Source: Dehalococcoidia bacterium (lineage in GTDB: Bacteria; Chloroflexota; Dehalococcoidia; UBA3495; JAAXIE01). Taken from it: a DNA stretch of 10,442 nt. The stretch is taken from assembly GCA_012270525.1 (NCBI GenBank), contig JAAXIE010000135.1, positions 1 through 10,442 on the forward strand, in the 5' to 3' direction. Within the stretch, counting starts at the first letter, position 1. Every line of letters starts with the position of its first letter. Shown piece after piece: positions 1 to 10,442 of this stretch. A program made the translations under genes and the position numbers. The notes below the pieces were generated by a model. That model did no database searches, was not told where the DNA came from, and saw nothing but the letters and a program-made list of their open reading frames with translations.

Positions 1-767
1 TCCCACGGGGCGGTGCCCACATCCTGCTGTACAGCCTCTTCCGGGGTCACGGAGTCGAAGTGCTTCTTGCTGTTCATGGAGAAGCCGGGGATGGGAGCCT
101 GACTGTACCAGGTGAGCTGGAAGGTGGGAGTGGGCCGCTTCAGTTCCACGGTGAGGTCGTCGATTTTCCGTAATTCGCAGCCGTCGCACTTGAACACCTT
201 CCGGGTGTTGCCCGCCTGCACATGGGAAGAGCCCTCGCGGGCGATTTCGCCGATGGACCAGATGAAGTCGTCGGCGTCCAGGTTGCCCCAATCACCTGGA
301 TTGGTGCGGTTGTGCCACTTGGCGCCCTCTTGGAGCCTGATGGTGTAGGTCAGTCCGTCGGGCGAGACGTCGAAACCGCTTACCAGTCGGTGTTCCCACT
401 CACCATCGTAGCCCATGATGAAGAGGGTCTCGTGGGTGACCAGCTCGGCGAACCTGTTCTGGAAGTAGCCAGCGTCGTAGAGAGTGGCCACATAGGGGCC
501 GAGAACCGCCATCCCCACATCAAGCGTCCCTTGGGGGGCCATCCTCGCTGGGGCTGTCCCAGCTGCGTCCACCACCGCGGGAGTCGGGGTGGCCACCGGA
601 GTCTGACCGGTAACCGACGGTGGCAGGGTTGTAATCGCCTGGACCGGTGCCACGGTCGGTTCTGGGGCCGCCGTCTCCGTGGTTTCCTCACCGCAGGCGA
701 TGATCACCGCCAGCAGGAGAAGCAGGATTCCTACGATTGCTACCTTGGCTCGCTTCGAACCTACCAT
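1..767 (-). CDS. ABC transporter substrate-binding lipoprotein, SBP family 5 (partial, N-terminal part)
   Basis: Reading frame open to the left edge; 255 complete codons are visible and the C-terminus lies outside. Seen: a lysine/arginine-positive N-terminus, a hydrophobic stretch (residues 9-24) and a lipobox ending in Cys25 (VIIAC), so a type II signal peptide and lipid anchoring are expected. Residues 26-79 form a low-complexity Thr/Pro/Ala linker. From about residue 80 the chain reads as the start of a peptide/nickel-binding SBP_bac_5 domain, with the family signature SPDGLTYTIRL (135-145) followed by EGAKWHN and DADDFIWSI. Known for the family: these proteins capture oligopeptides, nickel chelates or similar solutes outside the membrane and deliver them to a Dpp/Opp-type permease. 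The ATG at 767 is chosen because it follows a good Shine-Dalgarno and starts directly at the signal peptide. An unusual CDGC pair lies at residues 194-197. No permease or ATPase gene is in the window, so the substrate cannot be named. It is transcribed divergently from the sox-like operon. Confidence 0.9.
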   Translation of the reverse strand, partial: MVGSKRAKVAIVGILLLLLAVIIACGEETTETAAPEPTVAPVQAITTLPPSVTGQTPVATPTPAVVDAAGTAPARMAPQGTLDVGMAVLGPYVATLYDAGYFQNRFAELVTHETLFIMGYDGEWEHRLVSGFDVSPDGLTYTIRLQEGAKWHNRTNPGDWGNLDADDFIWSIGEIAREGSSHVQAGNTRKVFKCDGCELRKIDDLTVELKRPTPTFQLTWYSQAPIPGFSMNSKKHFDSVTPEEAVQQDVGTAPW

Positions 768-877: not shown

Positions 878-1106
878 GAGTCTCTATGCTAAGTCAATAT
901 ACTTTCGCAGATCCTAATCGTATTGCCTTGAAGTCAGGCGAGGGTCTCGGATTACTTAGGTGCTCTGGAGAGGCCATAGGCCCAGCCGGTGCTCGGGTTG
1001 ATTTGGGACTTACGGGTTGTTTCACCAATGGCCGGGCCTGCACTGGGCCAAAATTGCTGGAGCTTGTAGAGCCCCTGACCGTTCCCTAGTCCTCCTGCGG
1101 TGGACG

Positions 1107-1112
1107 TATAAT
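1107..1112 (+). promoter_or_regulatory. TATAAT -10 box of the sox-like operon (leaderless geometry)
   Basis: A perfect TATAAT whose last base lies 7 nt before the GTG at 1119. With the usual -12 to -7 numbering, transcription would begin exactly on that G, giving a leaderless mRNA. No Shine-Dalgarno precedes the GTG, which fits. No good -35 hexamer is seen at 16-19 nt upstream, so the box stands alone. Confidence 0.55.
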
Positions 1113-1118
1113 GCTCCG

Positions 1119-4034
1119 GTGAGATCCCAACGTCTGCCCCAACGTGCTCATCATGTCACCTCCCCACGACGGCGCATCGCCTTCACCCTGGATGGCAAGC
1201 GCATTGAAGGCGTGGAGGGGGATACACTAGCCTCAGCTCTCTACGCGGCGGGCGTCCGTATATTCACCCGAAGCTTCAAGTACCACCGCCCTCGGGGACT
1301 GCTGTGCGTATCGGGGAGTTGCCCCAACTGCTTGATGAATGTCGATGGCGTCCCCAACGTGCGCACCTGCACGGAACCGCTGCGGGAAGGCATGGCGGTA
1401 CGTCATCAGAACGCGTGGCCATCGCTGAGGCATGACCTTCTATCCGTACTCGACCGGCTGGACCGGTTTCTCCCGGTGGGCTTCTACTACAAGACGTTCA
1501 TCAGGCCCCGTTTTCTGTGGAGGGTGGTGTCGCCGTGGATGAGGCGTGTGGCGGGGTTGGGCAGGATCGATCCGGATGGCCTGCCCGCACACCATCACTA
1601 TGAGCATGTTCACCGGCACGCCGAGGTGGCAGTGATAGGAGGCGGGCCAGCCGGGCTGTCCGCTGCCGCGGAGGCCGGCAGGGCTGGACTGCGGGTCACG
1701 CTTGTCGACGAGCAGCCCTCCCTGGGAGGGCACCTGCGGGCTGAGTCGCATGCGTACGAGCACCTGCCTGAGGGGCAGTTGCAGGGGCGGTCGGGGTACG
1801 AAATCGCGGCCGAGTTGGCGGGTGCGCTGGAAGGGCTTCCCAACGTGGAAGTCCTCAGCGGGGCCAGTGCCTTCGGCCTGTACGAGGGTAACCTTCTTGG
1901 TATCGCGCAGGGGCAGCGGCTAATCAAGCTCCGCGCTGACTCGATAATCGTCGCCACCGGGGCCAAGCAGGTCCCCTATGTTTTCCGCAACAACGACCTG
2001 CCCGGCATCATGCTTGGAGCGGGAGTGCAGCGACTGGTGAACCTGTACGGAGTGAGTCCTGGACGGCGCGCGGTGGTGGTGACCAGCGATGAAGCCGGTT
2101 ACGACCTTGCTCAAGAGATGCTGGATGCGGGCGTTCCCGTGGCCGCCTTGGTGGACTGCCGGTCCTCCCGTGAGGCTGGATTCCCGGGGCCCAAGGAGTT
2201 GCAGAGCCAAGGGGTGGCCGTGTACCCAGCGCATCATGTGGTGCGGGCCCACGGGAGCCGTCACGTCCGCGCGCTTACGCTAGTTGACCAGATGACCAGC
2301 AAGAAGGGGCGCTTGGCGTGCGATCTGGTCTGCATGGCTGGGACGTATCAGCCGGAGTCCGCCCTGTTGCAGCAGTCTGGTTGTCGCATGACCTACGACG
2401 CCGATATTGATGAGACTGTGCCCACTCATCTGCCAACCGGGGTTTACGCGGCCGGGGATGTCACCGGCGTTCACGACCTGTGGTCAACGATTCTCCAAGG
2501 GCGCATCGCTGGACAGGAAGCGGCGGGCAGAATAGCGGGCCAGTTGCCCCGGATGAGGGGAGAGTTGGCGCGCACGACCGAACACTACCGGTTGAGGGTC
2601 ATTGATGCCGGGGTGCGTCGGCAAATGCCGTCCATCGACACCAAGAGCCGGAAGAAGAGCTTCGCGTGCTTCTGCGAAGACGTCACCGCCAAGGACGTGT
2701 CCGATGCGGTGACAGAGGGGTACGACGACATCGAACTGCTGAAGCGGTACACGACGTTCGCCATGGGCCCCTGCCAAGGGCGGATGTGCCAAGCCAACGT
2801 CAGGGCACTGTGCTCCAGGGTAACTGGGCAACCCATGGAAGAGGTATTTCCCACGACCTCGCGTCCTCCGGCACGACCCGTGGCCCTTGGCGCGCTGGCT
2901 GGCCCGGAACAGATGCCTGTTCGCCTCACCCCCATGCACTACGTGCACCTGCAGCTTGGTGCAGAGATGGGCGACGTAGGGCAGTGGCGACGGCCCCATC
3001 ATTACAGCACGGTAGAGGAGGAGTGCCGGGCTGTCCGCGAGCGGGTGGGTATGATCGACGTAAGCACACTGGGCAAGCTCGACGTGCAAGGGAGGGACGC
3101 AGGCAAGCTATTGGACCGGGTGTACACCAACACGCACTCCAACCTCGCAGTGGGTCGGACCCGCTACGGCGTGGTGTGTTCCGACTCGGGCGTGATCATG
3201 GATGACGGGACCGTCTCGCGCATTGGGCAGGACCGCTTCTACATAACCACTGGCACGGGAAACACCGACCTGATGGAGGAGTGGTTCAAGTGGTGGTCGG
3301 CTGGGAGCGAAGGGTGCGTGCATGTCAGCAACGTCACCTCGGCATACGCCGCGGTGAACGTTGCTGGCCCGCGGGCGCGGGATCTGCTGAAGAAGCTGAC
3401 CGACACCGATCTTGCCGCCGAGTCCTTCACCTACATGACTCACCGCGAGGCGGTGGTAGCTGGCGTGCCCGTGAGGATGATCCGCGTCGGGTTCGTGGGG
3501 GAAACAGGCTGGGAGTTGCACTGTCCATCCGAGTACGGCGAGCACCTCTGGAGCACCATCATGGAAGCCGGACTCGAGTTCGGCATCGCGCCCTTCGGCG
3601 TGGAGGCGCAGCGAGTCCTTCGCTTGGAGAAGAAGCACATCATCCCAGCCCAGGATACGGATGCCGTGTCGAACCCGCTGGAAGCAGACATGGCTTGGGT
3701 GGCCCGCTTGCAGAAGGACGATTTCATCGGAAAGCAGGGCCTGCGTGCGGTGCAGGAGCGGGGTATACGGCATTCGCTGGTGGGATTCGTGATGGACGAT
3801 TCCATACTACCCAGGGACGGCGACCCTGTTGTGGCCGAGGGGCAACCGGTGGGACGAGTGACAAGCTCGCGTTACAGTCCCGCGCTGGGCAGGGCGATCG
3901 GGATGGCCTGGGTGCCCATTTCGATGGCCGAAGAGAACACCGAACTGGGCGTCTTGGTGGAGGGCAGACGGACTACGGGGAGGGTGGTGACGCAGCCCTT
4001 CTACGATCCGGACGGCAGCAGGCTGAGGGAGTAG
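1119..4034 (+). CDS. soxA: Sarcosine-oxidase alpha-subunit-like protein: [2Fe-2S] - FAD/NAD Rossmann - BFD [2Fe-2S] - GcvT fusion
   Basis: A 971-residue multidomain flavoprotein subunit, the usual length of SoxA. Domains seen: an N-terminal ferredoxin-like domain (19-90) with Cys63, Cys68, Cys71 and Cys84 (C-x4-C-x2-C-x12-C); the SoxA-typical YYKTFIRP segment; a Rossmann dinucleotide site with GGGPAG at 174-179; a pyridine-nucleotide-oxidoreductase core ending in YAAGDVTG; a BFD-type [2Fe-2S] site with Cys517, Cys519, Cys552 and Cys557; and a GcvT-like folate-binding unit (about 604-971) with GETGWE at 794-799. Family knowledge: the alpha subunit receives electrons at the flavin and places the C1 unit from the oxidised N-methyl group on tetrahydrofolate. 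Classical corynebacterial SoxA lacks the cluster cysteines, whereas opine oxidase- and HCN synthase-type relatives keep them, so the true substrate may be another secondary amine or N-methylated amino acid. The frame extends upstream to a TTG at 1017. GTG 1119 is preferred because homologues begin near the following SQRLPQR and because of the TATAAT spacing. The stop lies 3 nt before the next start. Confidence 0.9.
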   Translation: MRSQRLPQRAHHVTSPRRRIAFTLDGKRIEGVEGDTLASALYAAGVRIFTRSFKYHRPRGLLCVSGSCPNCLMNVDGVPNVRTCTEPLREGMAVRHQNAWPSLRHDLLSVLDRLDRFLPVGFYYKTFIRPRFLWRVVSPWMRRVAGLGRIDPDGLPAHHHYEHVHRHAEVAVIGGGPAGLSAAAEAGRAGLRVTLVDEQPSLGGHLRAESHAYEHLPEGQLQGRSGYEIAAELAGALEGLPNVEVLSGASAFGLYEGNLLGIAQGQRLIKLRADSIIVATGAKQVPYVFRNNDLPGIMLGAGVQRLVNLYGVSPGRRAVVVTSDEAGYDLAQEMLDAGVPVAALVDCRSSREAGFPGPKELQSQGVAVYPAHHVVRAHGSRHVRALTLVDQMTSKKGRLACDLVCMAGTYQPESALLQQSGCRMTYDADIDETVPTHLPTGVYAAGDVTGVHDLWSTILQGRIAGQEAAGRIAGQLPRMRGELARTTEHYRLRVIDAGVRRQMPSIDTKSRKKSFACFCEDVTAKDVSDAVTEGYDDIELLKRYTTFAMGPCQGRMCQANVRALCSRVTGQPMEEVFPTTSRPPARPVALGALAGPEQMPVRLTPMHYVHLQLGAEMGDVGQWRRPHHYSTVEEECRAVRERVGMIDVSTLGKLDVQGRDAGKLLDRVYTNTHSNLAVGRTRYGVVCSDSGVIMDDGTVSRIGQDRFYITTGTGNTDLMEEWFKWWSAGSEGCVHVSNVTSAYAAVNVAGPRARDLLKKLTDTDLAAESFTYMTHREAVVAGVPVRMIRVGFVGETGWELHCPSEYGEHLWSTIMEAGLEFGIAPFGVEAQRVLRLEKKHIIPAQDTDAVSNPLEADMAWVARLQKDDFIGKQGLRAVQERGIRHSLVGFVMDDSILPRDGDPVVAEGQPVGRVTSSRYSPALGRAIGMAWVPISMAEENTELGVLVEGRRTTGRVVTQPFYDPDGSRLRE

Positions 4035-4037
4035 GCG

Positions 4038-4733
4038 ATGGCCGACCTGGTTCCGCACCGCTTGAGTCCGCTGCACCGACGCCACATCTCATTGGGTGCC
4101 CAGATGGTCAGTGAGTACGGTTGGCAGCGTCCCAGCCGTTACACGTCGGCACAAGAGGAAGGGGAGGAGATAGCATCAGCCGCTGGCTTGTGCGACATCA
4201 GCCCCGTGGGCAAGCTGCTGGTGCAGGGCAGCGAAATGCCGGGCGTGCTCATGAGGGCCTTGGGAGTCACGAAAATACCGGATACGGGGAGGGTGACGCG
4301 GCAACCGGGGGTTGGGCTGCTGTGTCGGCTTGCTGCTAATCAGGTGCTTCTATTCGTACCGCCAAGGGACGCAGACGAGGTGCGCTCCGCTTTTGATGCC
4401 CATCAAGAGGGGTGCGTTCATGTGGTGGACATGACTTCGGGGCTGACAGGCCTGTGCCTGGCCGGACCCCGTAGCCAGGATGTATTGAGCAAACTAACGG
4501 ATTTGGACCTGTCCCAGCCAGACGCCGGAGATATGACCTGCGCCCAGACCAGCCTATCGGGAGTGCAGGCCACAGTGGTACGGGCCGATTTGCGGTCGAT
4601 GTCCTGCTACCGTATCTTCGTGTCGAGAGACTTGGGTGAGTACGCTTGGGATGTGCTGACCGAGGCGGGATCGAGGGAAGGGCTGCAACCCTTTGGGGTC
4701 GAGACTTTTCGGGTGCTTAGGGGAGAGGCCTAA
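4038..4733 (+). CDS. soxG: Sarcosine-oxidase gamma-subunit-like protein (GcvT-fold, truncated relative to GcvT)
   Basis: A 231-residue protein with the fold of the first two thirds of aminomethyltransferase (GcvT). The N-terminal SPLHRRHISLGAQMV and GLCDISPVGKLLVQG match the GcvT start, and the chain stops after PFGVETFRVLRGEA, where GcvT would continue into its C-terminal barrel. It shares clear segments with the GcvT unit of the upstream alpha chain (EGCVHV, AGPR, KLTD-DL, PFGVE--RVLR), so the two look like paralogous units. The GETGWE stretch of the alpha chain is absent here, which suggests a structural rather than folate-binding role, as known for SoxG. The ATG lies 3 nt after the alpha stop, with a GAGGGAG Shine-Dalgarno at 4025-4031 overlapping the end of the alpha gene, so translational coupling is likely. 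Position between alpha and beta genes supports the subunit call. A free-standing GcvT-family protein is the alternative. Confidence 0.75.
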   Translation: MADLVPHRLSPLHRRHISLGAQMVSEYGWQRPSRYTSAQEEGEEIASAAGLCDISPVGKLLVQGSEMPGVLMRALGVTKIPDTGRVTRQPGVGLLCRLAANQVLLFVPPRDADEVRSAFDAHQEGCVHVVDMTSGLTGLCLAGPRSQDVLSKLTDLDLSQPDAGDMTCAQTSLSGVQATVVRADLRSMSCYRIFVSRDLGEYAWDVLTEAGSREGLQPFGVETFRVLRGEA

Positions 4734-4735
4734 CC

Positions 4736-5953
4736 GTGCTCCGGTTGTTCAGGAAAACACCCATGTGGCGACGCCACCCGCTCAGGGAAAGCTACGACGT
4801 GGTCATTGTGGGCGGCGGGGTACACGGCCTCTCCACTGCCTACTACCTTGGCAAGATGGGCGTGAAGAACGTGGCTGTGGTGGACCGGGGCTATCTCGGA
4901 GGGGGGGCAAGCGCGCGCACCACCGCGATCATACGGGCCAACTACTTGACGCCTGAGGGGATTCCCTTCTTCAGGCGCAGCCTTGCTCTGTACGAGAGGC
5001 TGGGGCAGGAACTCAACTTCAACCTGATGTTCAACCAGTTTGGGCGGTTGGACCTGGGGCACACCGAGTCGGCCATGTTCGGACTCCACATGAGGACGGA
5101 GTTCAACAAGGCTTTGGGCGTGGACAGCCGCCTTGTCGGCCCGGACGAGGTGAAGGAGTTGGTTCCCATTATCGACCTGCGACGGGGCAAGCAATTGCCC
5201 ATCCTGGGAGCCATGTATCACCCGCCCGGCGGGGTCATTCGCCACGACGCGGTGGTGTGGGGGTTCGGGCACGGGGCCGACAGGTTGGGAGCCGAGTTGC
5301 ATCCCCATACCAATGTGCTTGGAATCAGCCGTGACGGGCCTTCGGGATGGGTGGTCATCACCGACAGAGGCGACATTCGATGCGGGACGGTAGTTAATGC
5401 CACCGCGGGCTGGTGTTCCACCATCGCGCGCATGGTGGGCCTAGACCTGCCCATCATCACCTACCCGCTGGAAGCCTGTGTCACCGAGCCGCTGAAGCCT
5501 CTGCTCCACCGCACCATTTCCTCGGCGAACCTGCACGTGTATGCGTACCAGACGGACCGGGGCGAGGTGGTCATCGGCGGTGCGGTAAACCCCTATCCGG
5601 GGTACAGCGTGCGGTCGACGCTGCCTGCGTTGCAGACGCTCACTTCCCATCTGCTGGAGATGCTGCCCTGCCTGCGGGAAGCCCGCATCCTTCGGCAGTG
5701 GGCTGGTCTGTGCGACATGACCCCTGACTATGCCCCTCTCATGGGCGACGTGGAAGGGATGTCGGGATTCATCCTGAACTGTGGCTGGGGCACCTGGGGG
5801 TTCAAGGCGGCACCAGCGGCGGGTGAGAGTGTTGCTTCTTTGATCGCATCGGGGAAGACTCCCGATCTGATCAGGCCCTTCGGCATGGGACGGTTCGCCG
5901 ATGGGAGGCTGGTGAACGAGCGGGCCGCCGCGCCTGCGGCGGCGATACAGTAG
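4736..5953 (+). CDS. soxB: Sarcosine-oxidase beta-subunit-like FAD-dependent amine oxidoreductase
   Basis: A 405-residue DAO/SoxB-family flavoprotein. Seen: an N-terminal Rossmann motif VGGGVHGLSTAYYLG (25-39); ASARTTAIIRANY (58-70), typical of the FAD loop of the beta subunit; GGVIRHDAVVWG (165-176) with His170; and C-terminal signatures AGLCDMTPDYAPLMG and NCGWGTWGFKAAPAAGE. Family knowledge: SoxB binds FAD noncovalently and oxidises the amine, and FMN is attached covalently to a His (His172/173 in characterised enzymes) at the interface with alpha. His170 fits that residue by motif and by position. The substrate is probably sarcosine, dimethylglycine, N-methylglutamate or another secondary amine; sequence alone does not decide. 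The GTG at 4736 lies 2 nt after the gamma stop with GGGAG at 4721-4725. An in-frame ATG at 4763 with AGGA at 4751-4754 is a possible later start. The tail is Ala-rich. No terminator is evident after the stop. Confidence 0.9.
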   Translation: MLRLFRKTPMWRRHPLRESYDVVIVGGGVHGLSTAYYLGKMGVKNVAVVDRGYLGGGASARTTAIIRANYLTPEGIPFFRRSLALYERLGQELNFNLMFNQFGRLDLGHTESAMFGLHMRTEFNKALGVDSRLVGPDEVKELVPIIDLRRGKQLPILGAMYHPPGGVIRHDAVVWGFGHGADRLGAELHPHTNVLGISRDGPSGWVVITDRGDIRCGTVVNATAGWCSTIARMVGLDLPIITYPLEACVTEPLKPLLHRTISSANLHVYAYQTDRGEVVIGGAVNPYPGYSVRSTLPALQTLTSHLLEMLPCLREARILRQWAGLCDMTPDYAPLMGDVEGMSGFILNCGWGTWGFKAAPAAGESVASLIASGKTPDLIRPFGMGRFADGRLVNERAAAPAAAIQ

Positions 5954-6031
5954 AGGTCAGTCCGGTTGCAGGCACTCCCATGCCAGGGTTCTTGAGCACG
6001 GTGCCCACGCGTCCGCCTTTTTGATAACCGA

Positions 6032-6037
6032 TATAAT
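6032..6037 (+). promoter_or_regulatory. TATAAT -10 box ahead of the LLM oxidoreductase
   Basis: A perfect TATAAT with a predicted transcription start near 6044-6046. It overlaps the ATG at 6036, so if it is used, that ATG is not in the transcript. The first in-frame start downstream would then be TTG 6072, which has GGAG at 6061-6064 with a 7-nt gap. As with the box before the sox-like operon, no clear -35 element is seen. Confidence 0.45.
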
Positions 6038-7139
6038 GGATGCCGATTTCTGGGAAGATTGGAGCGCAGGGTTGCCGGACGGGTTCCAACTGAGCGTAGT
6101 AGACCAATCTCCCGTACGCAAGGGCGGGACAGCCGCCGATGCATTGAAGGAATCGGTGCGCTTGGCCCAGATCGTGGAGGGGCTGGGCTACAGCCGGTAT
6201 TGGGTGGCGGAGCATCACAACTCCGGTGCCTTCGCTGGCACCAGCCCCGAGATTCTCATCGGGCAGATTGCCGGTGCAACCAACTCCATCCGGGTGGGCA
6301 GCGGGGGCGTGATGCTGTCCCACTACTCATCCCTGAAGGTTGCGGAGCAGTTTCGGGTGCTGGACTCCTTCTTTCCAGGGCGGATAGACCTTGGTATCGG
6401 TCGTGCTCCCGGCAGCGACCGGCTGACCTCGGCCGCACTGGTGTACCCGCGACCGCAAGCCGACATCAACAAGTTCCCGCAGCAGGTGTCCGACCTGATG
6501 GGCTATCTCACTGGCGCGGTGGTGGGGGAGCAGGCGTTCTCCGGCATACGAGCCCAACCCGGTTCCGACCCTGAGTCCACGCCAGAGGTCTGGTTGCTGG
6601 GGTCCAGCTTCTATAGTGCCCAGTTGGCGGCGGTGCTGGGTCTTCCGTTCTCGTTTGCCGATTTCTTCGGGATGACCAGCTTCCACGGTCCCGAGGCTGC
6701 GTCGGTCTATAGGCGGGAATTCCAGCCCTCGCCCTACGTGTCGGAGCCCAAGCTGAATGTGACCCTGCAGGTGATATGCGCTGCCACGACCGAGGAGGCG
6801 GAGTATCTAGCGACCAGCCGCAAGATCGACCGTTTGCGCATGGCCTTGGGAGAGAGGCAGGGACTGTTGCCACCCGAAGAGGCGGCCGCTTACTCCTTGA
6901 GAGAGGACGAACGCATTTACATCGAACGGAACACGGTCGGCAACATCGTGGGAGACCCGGACCAGGTGGGGGAGCTCATCGTGCAGGCTGCTGCCCGGTA
7001 CGATACCGTAGACGTGGGCATCGTCACCAACTGCTATGATTTCCAAGCAAGGGTGACGTCATACGAGTTGGTGGCCGAACGCTTCAACCTGCAAGGGCCG
7101 GAACCCGCCACCATGCCATCAGAGCAACTGGCGCGGTAA
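6036..7139 (+). CDS. LLM-class flavin-dependent oxidoreductase (luciferase-like, MsnO8-like group)
   Basis: A 367-residue bacterial-luciferase-fold (TIM barrel) protein of about the family's usual length. Seen (numbering from 6036): LSVVDQSPV (19-27), the typical first strand of this group; [14 protein letters not shown] (49-62), [14 protein letters not shown] and [16 protein letters not shown], all diagnostic of LLM oxidoreductases with the AEHH element near the flavin; and a C-terminal part with [14 protein letters not shown], the usual cofactor/dimer-side segment. Known for the family: reduced FMN or F420 is used to oxygenate or oxidise small organics; substrates vary widely and cannot be predicted here. 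No flavin reductase is adjacent. The start is uncertain. ATG 6036 is the only ATG but has no Shine-Dalgarno and overlaps a TATAAT; TTG 6072 has a well-placed GGAG and gives an N-terminus closer to homologues; TTG 6021 is also open. An 82-nt gap separates it from the sox-like operon, so it may be a separate unit or partly read through. Confidence 0.88.
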
Positions 7140-7359: not shown

Positions 7360-10300
7360 CTATTGGGCTACTACGATGGCCCCGGTGAGGGTCTCGCCCC
7401 GCTGCTCCGGCTTGTAGTATGAGTAGACCTGCGAGACGACTTCCTTGGCCCTTACCGGATACCTGGCCTTCGCTTGGAATGCGAAGGATAGCTGTTCGCC
7501 GGGAGACATGTCCTCGATGTAGAGGATGACCTTGCGCCCCGCCACCTCGAATCGCTTCAGGTTGTGGTTGGTCTCGACCAGGGACTCGATGGTGTCGCGC
7601 ACCGGTTCGAACCCGGTGGGGACTGCGATGTCCAGCACCACCATGCCGGCATCGCCCGGTCGGGGCGGGTTGAATTGTATGGTGGCGGTGACGGTAATGA
7701 GGTCGTCCACCTCGACCTGTTCCGTGCCGTAGTCCACGGTTATCTCGAACACGTCCTGCGTGGTGTCGCGGGACTCCGGGACTGAGTACCTGAGGACGGA
7801 CTGGACCACCACGTCCCCCCTGCCGGCGGAGGTGACGGTGACGTCGCTACCCAAGGGGATCTCGAAGGTCTGGAGCACGTCGGCGTTGGCTGCATTGATG
7901 CGGATTTCCCTGCTCAGGTCACCGCTCTGTAGGGTGACCGTCACGTCCACGTCGGACCGGGAGTGGGTCGAGAAGGCGGTGAGGGCTTGCAGGCCGACGA
8001 CGGTGTCCTGGGTGGAGCCGAACCCGCCATGAGCGTTGCGCTGTCCCGCAAGCCACTTGGCGGCGCGGGAAGCGCTCACGAGGTCACCACGTTCCACGAG
8101 GGATAGCAGAGCATAGCCCGTGGTCTCGATGGAGGCACTATGGCCTATTTCGGGCAGGTGAGGTGTGGGCAGTCCCCCAGGAATGGGTTCTACGGTCGGG
8201 GGAGGGTCGCCCCAGAACAGGGCGTCGCCGTCCATTTGGGCCGCCGCCATCAGCTTTTCGTGCGCTTCGTCTCTGGAGGGGCTGCCTGCCAGTTCCAGGG
8301 CATATGCGGTGATGGCCAGGGTGTAGGGGTCGTCAATGCTGTCCAATCGGTCTTCCAGGTAGTCGATGGCGAGGGGCCCCTGCCTGCTTCCGGCTTCCAG
8401 GAGGGCGATGGCCACGTAGGCCGTCAGGGCGTCCCTGCCTTGCAGCCCTCCCAGGAGTTCCTGGTGATGCAGGAAGCCGACGTTGGAGAAAGAGCCGTCG
8501 CGAGACTGGTGCCGCCCAATCCATGCTGCGGCGTCGCTCAGAACGTCGGGGTCAATGTACATGAAGTCCTGGGCCTCGGCGAAGGTCTTGAGCACGAAGG
8601 CGGTTAGCCACAGGCTGCCCTCCCGGTCGCTGTCGCCGAAGGCGGAGAAGCTGCCGTCGTGCCGCTGGTAGGTCATCTCACGCTGGTAACCCACCAGCAT
8701 CAGGTGCTCGGCCTTGGCCATGATTTCGGGCTTGAACTGGTCCGTTTCCTGCAGGTAGCGGGCGACGAATACGTTGGGGGCGAAGAGGATCATGTTCTGC
8801 TCGCCACAGCCGAAGGGCATACGCAGCAGACCCTCCAGACCTTCGATGGTCTGCGTCATCAAGCTGCCGGTCAGGGCAACATATGCGCGCCCAGACCCTT
8901 CCACGGCGTTCAGGGGAATACGGGTGCTGAACTCGTGGCTGCTTGTAGCGGAGAGGACGTGGTTGCCCACGGCCTCAACTTCCACGCCTTCGGGCTCCAC
9001 CAGAAGCTCCTTGATGACGGCATCGGCTGCTTCGGTGCTGCGAGCCGTGATTTTCACCGGCGTGGAACCCAGTTGATTCAGCCGGACTCTGAACTCGACG
9101 CCATCGATGTCGCTGGGGCCCACAGTCACAGACTTGGTGCGAGCGTCCAGAAGATCGAATGCGTCGCTCGGTTCGATTTCAACAAAGAGCTCCTGTGGAG
9201 TGTCCAGGTAGTTGAAGAGGGCGACCTTGACGGGCAGCTCCTCGCCACGAATGGCGGAGTAGGGGAGGTCGACGGTGAGGAAGAAGGGCTGGAATACTCT
9301 CAACTGGTCCTGGCCGATGCCCAGTCCGTGTTCCCTGGACATGCCCACGGCGCGAAGCATCCAGGTGGTGATGCTGTCGGGGGCTTCCACCGGCACTGTG
9401 GCCGAGCCGCCAGAGCCGGTGGTTACATCCTGCCACAGCCAGGTTTCGGGGAAGAACTGGCGCACCCGTTGCACCTCTGCCAGACCTCCTGGAGGGGAAG
9501 CGCCTGCTTGAGGAGGCGGAGGGGAAGCAGTGGGGAGGGGAGCCCTCTCCATCATTGCCTCTTGAGCATCCACGGCCACGGCGATTGCGCCCTCCATGAC
9601 AGGACGTGGACGGGTGAATTCTTCCCCGGATGGAAGCTGCTTGTTGGTCAGGACGACGGTGCCAGCGTCCTGGAAGGTTTCGAAGGCTCCCCGGGTTTCC
9701 AGCTCGTAGGGGGTGAAGTCGTGCAACTCCACCTGGGGTTCGAGGTAGAGCTTCTCCAGTTCGTTGAACACCTGCTGCAGGTTGAGTCGGCTCTCGGCGA
9801 GGATGAACACGCTTCTGTCGACGGCAACGAGGCCGACCCGCGATTCGCCTTGAGTCTGGACCTGGATGTCCACGGCATCGCCCGGCTGTACCTGGTCACG
9901 GCTGAAATCGACTTCCACCTGGTGGGGGTACGATGCTTCTACGCTGAAGGGGAGGTAGTCGGCAGCGATCTCGTTGTTGGGAAGGATCTGGTATACGAGG
10001 AGACGGGAGGAAGGGGCCATCATGTGGTCGGCGGTGAAGCGAATATCGGGACTGGTGGAAACGCTGGTGAACAGCACCGTACCTCTGGATAGGACCTCAT
10101 AGTAGAAGGCTCGAGCCTCCCTTGTGGAGTTGACGCGGAAATGGACGAGATCGCCGACCATGATGTCGCCCTGCGTCACCTGCTCGAGGTGTATGAAGTG
10201 GCCTGAAGGCGAGTGACCCGCCTGCTGGGTGAGGCTGGTGTAAGCCCCCTCGGATTCGGCTTCCAGCACGAAGAATACGGCATCAGCGGGGGGCTCGATC

Positions 10301-10442
10301 TCGAGCAGGGCCCTGCCGTTGGATGTGGTGACATATGCCACGCCAGCATCCAGAGGCTCGAACTCCTTGTCGACATACGAGGAGGTGATCCTCACCTCGG
10401 TGTCGACGGGTTGGCCGTCGGGGGTTTGGGCCACTACGAGGT
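7360..10442 (-). CDS. Alpha-2-macroglobulin/complement-like thioester protein (partial, N-terminus beyond the window)
   Basis: The frame is open to the right edge; more than 1,024 residues are visible (numbered here from the codon at 10434). Order seen: macroglobulin (MG) domains with LVYQILPNNEIAADY and VGLVAVDRSVF; a bait-like Pro-rich stretch (268-323); VRQFFPETWLW and FQPFFLTVDLPYSAIRGEE (MG7 area); LLVEPEGVEVE and a CUB half; a thioester domain (about 535-820) with MPFGCGEQNM (Cys543, Gln546) and WLTAFVLKTFAEA; STQDTVVGLQAL; a second CUB half; and a receptor-binding-like domain (about 925-1024) ending AIVVAQ. Family knowledge: Cys and Gln form an internal thioester that couples covalently to targets once proteolysis exposes it. 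The order and motifs match animal A2M/C3 more closely than E. coli YfhM, whose thioester is CLEQ. His657 aligns with the C3 catalytic His. Cys543 is the only cysteine. Export is expected, but a signal peptide would lie outside the window. Likely role: protease trapping or surface tagging in defence. Confidence 0.92.
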   Translation of the reverse strand, partial: LVVAQTPDGQPVDTEVRITSSYVDKEFEPLDAGVAYVTTSNGRALLEIEPPADAVFFVLEAESEGAYTSLTQQAGHSPSGHFIHLEQVTQGDIMVGDLVHFRVNSTREARAFYYEVLSRGTVLFTSVSTSPDIRFTADHMMAPSSRLLVYQILPNNEIAADYLPFSVEASYPHQVEVDFSRDQVQPGDAVDIQVQTQGESRVGLVAVDRSVFILAESRLNLQQVFNELEKLYLEPQVELHDFTPYELETRGAFETFQDAGTVVLTNKQLPSGEEFTRPRPVMEGAIAVAVDAQEAMMERAPLPTASPPPPQAGASPPGGLAEVQRVRQFFPETWLWQDVTTGSGGSATVPVEAPDSITTWMLRAVGMSREHGLGIGQDQLRVFQPFFLTVDLPYSAIRGEELPVKVALFNYLDTPQELFVEIEPSDAFDLLDARTKSVTVGPSDIDGVEFRVRLNQLGSTPVKITARSTEAADAVIKELLVEPEGVEVEAVGNHVLSATSSHEFSTRIPLNAVEGSGRAYVALTGSLMTQTIEGLEGLLRMPFGCGEQNMILFAPNVFVARYLQETDQFKPEIMAKAEHLMLVGYQREMTYQRHDGSFSAFGDSDREGSLWLTAFVLKTFAEAQDFMYIDPDVLSDAAAWIGRHQSRDGSFSNVGFLHHQELLGGLQGRDALTAYVAIALLEAGSRQGPLAIDYLEDRLDSIDDPYTLAITAYALELAGSPSRDEAHEKLMAAAQMDGDALFWGDPPPTVEPIPGGLPTPHLPEIGHSASIETTGYALLSLVERGDLVSASRAAKWLAGQRNAHGGFGSTQDTVVGLQALTAFSTHSRSDVDVTVTLQSGDLSREIRINAANADVLQTFEIPLGSDVTVTSAGRGDVVVQSVLRYSVPESRDTTQDVFEITVDYGTEQVEVDDLITVTATIQFNPPRPGDAGMVVLDIAVPTGFEPVRDTIESLVETNHNLKRFEVAGRKVILYIEDMSPGEQLSFAFQAKARYPVRAKEVVSQVYSYYKPEQRGETLTGAIVVAQ

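Follow-up and report, generated by a model that had tools for sequence, protein, structure and literature searches.

The stretch of DNA analyzed here (10,442 nt, hereafter the window) ends in a gene for an alpha-2-macroglobulin (A2M), and we consider it probable that the gene product is a lipid-anchored surface protease trap of a bacterium likely belonging to Dehalococcoidia. In particular, it is read here as an animal-type A2M, distinct from YfhM, whose prokaryotic family either includes the animal family or is its sister. The open reading frame on the minus strand (7360-10440, 1026 aa) is uninterrupted, and the N-terminus of the protein is cut off by the window edge (Table 1).

The bait-region domain, MG7, the thioester motif GCGEQNM and the receptor-binding domain (RBD) follow each other in the animal order, with all Pfam scores well above the cut-offs, and the GCGEQ thioester sits within the TED_complement domain. 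A preliminary description of the window had proposed exactly this order, including a receptor-binding-like end, and all sequence segments quoted there are found in the translation. The best relative, P0001 (1450 aa, 76% identical to the window protein), shares its six Pfam domains with gorilla CD109 and has, in addition, a cyclase match below threshold. MG2 and MG3 were detected in P0001, the corresponding part of the window protein being outside the window. Neither the window protein nor P0001 has a Pfam match to the anaphylatoxin or C345C domains, and no NCBIfam model matches the window protein at E 0.001. The C-terminus, GAIVVAQ, ends nine residues past the RBD without a hydrophobic tail, and no GPI (glycosylphosphatidylinositol) anchor signal is recognized there.

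Animal proteins are the closest known structures. In the sequence search against PDB (best 60 of 71 matches), human A2M (422 bits), CD109 (420) and A2ML1 (404) lead, followed by C4 (290), TEP1 (264-265), C3 (218) and then C5, and no YfhM-type chain is found among these 60; the CD109 alignment is a single stretch covering residues 40-1014 of the window protein. In the core from MG7 to the RBD, the window protein is 36% identical to human A2M, 36% to CD109, 33% to A2ML1, and 31% to both C3 and TEP1, the identity between human A2M and human C3 being 28% on the same scale. In the thioester domain (TED) it is 39% identical to TEP1 and 37% to human C3, human A2M and human C3 sharing 31% here. The predicted structural model and the PDB matches retain the MG7-CUB-TED-CUB-RBD order and fold, contrary to the refuting outcome named in the preliminary description. 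CD109 is the best Foldseek match of the model, the C3 fold is matched over residues 328-1025, and most C3d/C4d/C5d fragments superpose on the modelled thioester domain at 2.2-2.8 A. Structures of the E. coli and Salmonella A2Ms are not among the 50 structural matches listed, which does not prove a different fold.

Two kinds of bacterial A2Ms have been distinguished before, the YfhM type (type I) and the MagD type (type II, described as lacking the thioester in the accessible part of PMC5764988; all articles cited here by PMC number are represented by such parts of their texts). The third kind of prokaryotic A2M, beside these two, is what the class studied here amounts to. E. coli YfhM has CLEQ in place of CGEQ, the domains bMG1, bMG2, bMG3, bMG5, bMG6, bMG10 and CUB_A2MG, and no A2M_recep match, just as stated in the preliminary description. 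That the window protein is a divergent YfhM-type A2M with convergent animal-like features is very improbable, even though the broad CXEQ motif is kept and a single core cysteine is present, as in YfhM. Its core identity to E. coli YfhM is 19%, compared with 31-36% to the animal proteins, and no bMG domain was matched either in the window protein (with its N-terminus missing) or in the full-length P0001. The pbpC gene was found by tblastn in none of the 80 loci of animal-type relatives (some flanks being short), in two of the six Chloroflexota outgroup loci (L097 and L100; these six are five YfhM-type loci and L095) and in E. coli; none is among the window proteins scanned, a check that covers one side of the A2M gene, as its far flank lies outside the view. 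Moreover, thioester-domain scores (PF07678) in 251 genomes of the phylum of L010, an uncultured Dehalococcoidia chromosome, fall into two groups: 14 matches with frame lengths of 1389-1534 aa score 278-310 bits, and the others, whose frames mostly measure 1.7-2.3 thousand aa, stay below 66 bits. The sole match between the groups is L095 (G738:C13), a 1659-aa Chloroflexota A2M with GCFEQ and 168.7 bits, which also steadies the root of the tree. One Chloroflexota genome, G627 (loci L100 and L101), bears both the animal-type and the YfhM-type A2M, the latter adjoining a pbpC homologue. The YfhM-type identity was rejected on the basis of the tree (see below) and of domain content.

The class is widespread in prokaryotes. 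When 5.8 billion proteins were searched, 7988 candidates were scored and 3387 of them matched; the few of the best 120 that bear names are assigned to Chloroflexi or SAR202 bacteria or called 'CD109 antigen' (JGI pipelines). P0012, P0056, P0078 and other bacterial proteins carry the latter label from metagenome pipelines, the likeness thus being already visible in databases. A scan of one genome per species (84,980 species) yielded 190 relatives from 221 motif matches. The best 80 of these (loci L002-L081) are mostly labelled as Dehalococcoidia and other Chloroflexota, with some Actinomycetota and 16 archaeal-labelled loci; archaeal members include the isolates Methanolobus psychrotolerans, profundi, bombayensis, halotolerans and vulcani. 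Among genomes sampled from the class of L010 (Dehalococcoidia), 19 of 197 match the A2M_recep marker, as do 62 of 149 from the order of M. psychrotolerans, each with one match; of 14 control genomes, E. coli among them, none does. In the phylum of L062 (Actinomycetota), animal-type scores are reached by 2 of 198 genomes. Hence the family is broadly distributed in prokaryotes, archaea included, and is not a lone transfer.

Several labels in this set are doubtful. L049, from a metagenome-assembled genome (MAG) assigned to 'Methanosarcinales', groups with Chloroflexota and looks mis-binned, and so does the 'Deltaproteobacteria' locus L042, whose N-terminus is nearly that of the SAR202 bin L015. 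L074, from a Thermococci-labelled MAG, has its branch in the tree near animals and bacteria. Its archaeal label is unsure: one near-identical copy aside, the top matches reach about 46% identity, and those of the 120 listed that carry names are Dehalococcoidia, Dehalococcoidales, Chloroflexota or 'CD109 antigen'.

That an animal gene strayed into a metagenome bin is suggested by the resemblance alone, and such contamination is extremely improbable. The frame is uninterrupted, and GC content is even over the window (61-64% per kb across the A2M gene, 59-64% in the neighbours). The gene order A2M - luciferase-like monooxygenase (LLM) - SoxB - GCV_T - SoxA is repeated in L010, with identities of 73, 88, 90, 63 and 85%, respectively (SoxA only to the locus end), and members of the family are found in the named Methanolobus isolates. 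Contamination was rejected on this synteny; the shared order indicates that the window gene is a normal chromosomal gene and that the host is likely a member of Dehalococcoidia. In plasmid collections, the window protein has just two weak matches (31% query coverage, less than 28% identity), and in phage collections it has none.

For the phylogenetic analysis, 77 of the 80 loci were kept (L057, L061 and L068, shorter than 1000 aa, were dropped), and animals were sampled by six rows: human A2M, A2ML1 and C3, CD109 of gorilla and a hamster, and mosquito TEP1. From 93 and then 100 rows, trees of 53 (rooted with YfhM and a Meiothermus protein), 51 (no outgroup), 46 (graded outgroups) and 42 rows (reduced) were drawn. 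The main tree is the one with graded outgroups from Chloroflexota genomes (685 columns, LG+C20). Here the CXEQ proteins form one clade (support 100/99), against which the window protein groups with the animal members (100/99; 997 of 1000 bootstrap trees); it is thus placed outside the YfhM clade, the outcome of the tree check proposed at the outset. On the CGEQ side, Methanosarcinales (100/99) branch first, the remainder holds together (98/89), and the Thermococci-labelled MAG comes next. Animals form one clade (100/99) beside a bacterial group (94/91), which has support 88/72 and includes L049 and L096. The ultrafast bootstrap (1000 trees) recovers animals as a single clade 998 times and prokaryotes once, with animals sister to the bacterial group in 966 trees (all of the group in 848, part of it in 118). 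In the approximately unbiased (AU) test, prokaryote monophyly is rejected when YfhM, C3, TEP1 and L096 are removed (p 0.023) but not on the full set of 46 rows (p 0.12); these values leave two options, that the window family contains the animal A2M/CD109/C3/TEP family or that it is sister to it.

Animal-to-bacteria transfer of A2M was reportedly proposed by Budd et al. in 2004. Applied to this class, an old transfer from animals to prokaryotes is unlikely, though the core identity of 36% to human A2M and CD109 agrees with it, as does the tree without outgroups, which cannot root the family and in which the grouping of prokaryotes with CD109 is not quite rejected (p 0.067) and prokaryotes, CD109 and A2M stand against C3 and TEP1 on a weak branch (71/30). 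A 2026 review also repeats the idea that bacteria took A2Ms from their animal hosts (PMC13069473, in part). With graded outgroups, all three placements nested among animals are rejected by the AU test: prokaryotes with CD109 (p 2.5e-11), with A2M and CD109 (p 0.009), and with C3 and TEP1 (p 0.006). Further arguments against it are the single animal clade in the bootstrap trees and the frequency of the family, which 62 of the 149 sampled Methanolobus-order genomes and 19 of the 197 from the L010 class possess. Nesting of the prokaryotes inside the known animal paralogues is therefore disfavoured, being rejected with graded outgroups. Since cnidarians reportedly have C3, A2M and CD109 as distinct proteins (PMC13337447, in part), any transfer out of animals would be older than that split; in a variant of this explanation, the gene may have come from a stem animal before the paralogues separated. 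Of the two options in the preliminary description, an old transfer or a bacterial lineage near the base of the animal family, the second is favoured by the tests, which are also compatible with an ancient transfer at the animal stem. Tentatively, at slightly less than even chances, we propose that the A2M/CD109/complement family entered the animal stem from prokaryotic surface protease traps, whose living members are found in Dehalococcoidia and methanogenic archaea, with the window gene on the bacterial sister branch of animals.

The proposed function as a trap is based on the hypervariable bait, the thioester, the catalytic histidine and the lipobox-bearing relatives. Of the 85 prokaryote rows, 82 have His at the catalytic position of C3 (L015 and L051 have Asn, L042 Asp); C3, TEP1, CD109 and A2ML1 also have His there, and human A2M has Asn. 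A second, divergent CGEQ copy in a Gaiellales genome, L096 (G007:C77; the genome is also linked with L062), has Asp in this position; in L096 and L042, and also in L015 and L051 with Asn as in human A2M, the thioester chemistry may be changed. A single core cysteine is found in 68 of 85 prokaryote rows, compared with 4-12 in the six animal rows.

Between the bait-region domain and MG7 there is a stretch (residues 267-319, its limits set by eye after inspection of the alignment) with 37% identity and 15% gaps relative to eight close relatives, other parts showing 64-87%; relative to 37 relatives the identity is 29%, other parts showing 56-80%. In the model, the predicted local distance difference test (pLDDT) is below 50 at 277-319. 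By its place and variability the stretch could serve as the bait. Of the 69 relatives whose N-terminus is complete, 58 have a lipobox-like signal, including 12 of 13 archaeal ones, according to a rule of our own (an earlier, too narrow pattern gave 30 of 84). Electron microscopy of cultured SAR202 cells shows monoderm envelopes (PMC10444878), and a monoderm organization is described for Chloroflexota (PMC12488501, PMC10284905; all three in part); with such an envelope, a lipoprotein would face outside, like the GPI-anchored CD109.

For the window protein itself, we infer the surface location, cleavage, shape change and covalent capture. A foreign protease would cut the exposed hypervariable bait, and the cleavage would cause a change of shape, as in animal A2Ms. 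The buried C545-Q548 thioester would thereby be uncovered and, assisted by H659, could form a bond with either the protease or a hydroxyl group in the vicinity, so that the protease would be held or smothered at the cell surface.

The main rival is a C3/TEP-like working, in which the cleaved thioester would tag nearby surfaces (cells, phage, minerals) for adhesion or marking. Histidine at the thioester catalytic position favours bonds to hydroxyl groups, and H659 is shared with C3, TEP1 and CD109, unlike Asn of human A2M; the RBD is also present. Archaeal homologues have been proposed to act in immune or inter-microbial conflict systems (PMC8416519, in part). We nevertheless regard tagging as rather unlikely, as the histidine also occurs in CD109 and in A2ML1, a protein that captures proteases (PMC9156758, in part), anaphylatoxin and C345C are missing in the Pfam scans, and no partner gene is kept nearby in bacteria.

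Besides the outgroup-free results given above, a number of observations weigh against the interpretation as an animal-type surface trap. The model is of moderate quality (pLDDT 76.7, predicted template modelling score 0.56), with pLDDT below 50 at 539-545 and 658-662, beside the thioester and the histidine, and its whole-chain root mean square deviation from native A2M, A2ML1 and CD109 is 14-18 A. CGEQ is found in all 85 prokaryote rows, of which 77 locus rows were preselected by GCGEQ and only eight are informative. A single core cysteine is seen in YfhM and the Meiothermus protein as well, so this trait is not special to the class. The variability of residues 267-319 is also compatible with a mere linker. 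The anchor and the N-terminal domains of the window protein are read from relatives, 11 of 69 of which fail the lipobox rule (among these, visual inspection shows a lipobox in L016 and P0090 and none in L019, L043 and L067). With YfhM and Meiothermus as the sole outgroup, animals are placed beside archaea (73/84), not bacteria; this rooting, with outgroup branches of 8-10 changes per column, was replaced by graded outgroups, where long branches persist (2.8 for C3 and TEP1, 1.75 for L095). No neighbouring gene family is common to more than 7 of the 80 loci in bacteria, the top one being an ABC transporter ATPase family at scattered distances, and with no conserved bacterial neighbour the context lends the proposed role no support. 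Among the 16 archaeal loci, two families are found upstream of the A2M gene in seven each, as expected of close relatives. Finally, no report of activity was found for any member of the class.

Table 1. Features of the A2M gene in the window (strand as in the window; residues of the 1026-aa frame)
Feature	Position	Strand	Evidence
Animal-type alpha-2-macroglobulin gene, C-terminal 1026 codons and stop (7360-7362)	7360..10440	-	Open reading frame, Pfam, best relative P0001; start codon beyond the window
A2M_BRD domain, residues 88-214	9799..10179	-	Pfam 89 bits, E 4.7e-25
Hypervariable bait-like stretch, residues 267-319, predicted disordered	9484..9642	-	Alignment variability and low pLDDT
A2M (MG7) domain, residues 333-421, FPETW motif at edge	9178..9444	-	Pfam 90 bits, E 1.1e-25
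Thioester domain, residues 524-822	7975..8871	-	Pfam TED_complement 296.5 bits, E 2.6e-88; alpha-helical in model
CGEQ thioester, C545-Q548	8797..8808	-	Coding checked; C545 is the sole cysteine of 1026 residues
H659, catalytic histidine position of C3, TEP1, CD109, A2ML1	8464..8466	-	Coding checked
Receptor-binding-type domain A2M_recep, residues 930-1017	7390..7653	-	Pfam 69 bits, E 6.4e-19

The remaining part of the window contains consecutive SoxA-, GCV_T- and SoxB-like genes (1017-5953, sarcosine-oxidase-like), adjoined by the gene of an MsnO8-type luciferase-like monooxygenase (6021-7139). The TTG start of the SoxA frame as listed is likely too early, because the first model match begins at about residue 50. 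At the window edge there is a fragment of a family 5 solute-binding protein (3-767, minus strand) with a lipoprotein-like N-terminus.

In the accessible parts of the literature, a 2026 review lists A2Ms from animals and Gram-negative bacteria (PMC12939704), and a 2021 paper describes archaeal A2Ms, 27 proteins in 24 genomes, considering the one of Methanolobus psychrophilus closely related to bacterial A2Ms and most likely acquired from bacteria (PMC8416519). A2Ms have also been reported from Patescibacteria (PMC9793634) and a sponge thaumarchaeon (PMC6697440). In the open-licence part of PubMed Central, no literature on the animal-type class in Chloroflexota was found. Already known are the archaeal part and the database names; added here are the third class, its occurrence across Dehalococcoidia and its position next to the animal family. 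The full animal architecture in monoderm bacteria and methanogens reverses the published picture and makes the origin of complement testable; if the proposed descent is true, a founding part of animal innate immunity is of prokaryotic origin. Cultured methanogens bearing the gene could reveal what the ancestral machine did before animal immunity, and cores in which the thioester cysteine is often alone are handy for studies of the thioester and of protease capture.

Among known systems, CD109 (human, PDB 8s3o; gorilla, P0121) is like P0001 in its six Pfam domains, their order and the full length of about 1450 aa, and CGEQ and the catalytic His are also present in the window protein. CD109 differs in being richer in cysteines and in its GPI-type C-terminal tail, which has no counterpart in the window protein, most relatives bearing an N-terminal lipobox instead. 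Human A2M and A2ML1 have the same architecture as the window protein, with CGEQ, the bait ahead of MG7 and the RBD, but more cysteines in the core (11 and 12), and human A2M has Asn in the catalytic position instead of His. Complement C3 and insect TEP1 share the catalytic His and the C3 fold with the window protein, while anaphylatoxin and C345C domains are not found in it. The A2M of Methanolobus psychrophilus (WP_015053894), set beside E. coli A2M and not Dehalococcoidia in the accessible part of PMC8416519, likely belongs to the same family as L070-L073 and L075-L078, judging by genus only. MagD, in the part of its description cited above, lacks the thioester, whereas the window protein has CGEQ. 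The MagD type is also defined by a six-gene mag operon; the neighbours seen in the window are Sox, LLM and solute-binding protein genes. YfhM resembles the window protein in its thioester A2M core with one cysteine and most animal-type relatives in its N-terminal lipobox, and differs in CLEQ, the bMG domains, the lack of A2M_recep, the position of its gene beside pbpC and its separate clade.

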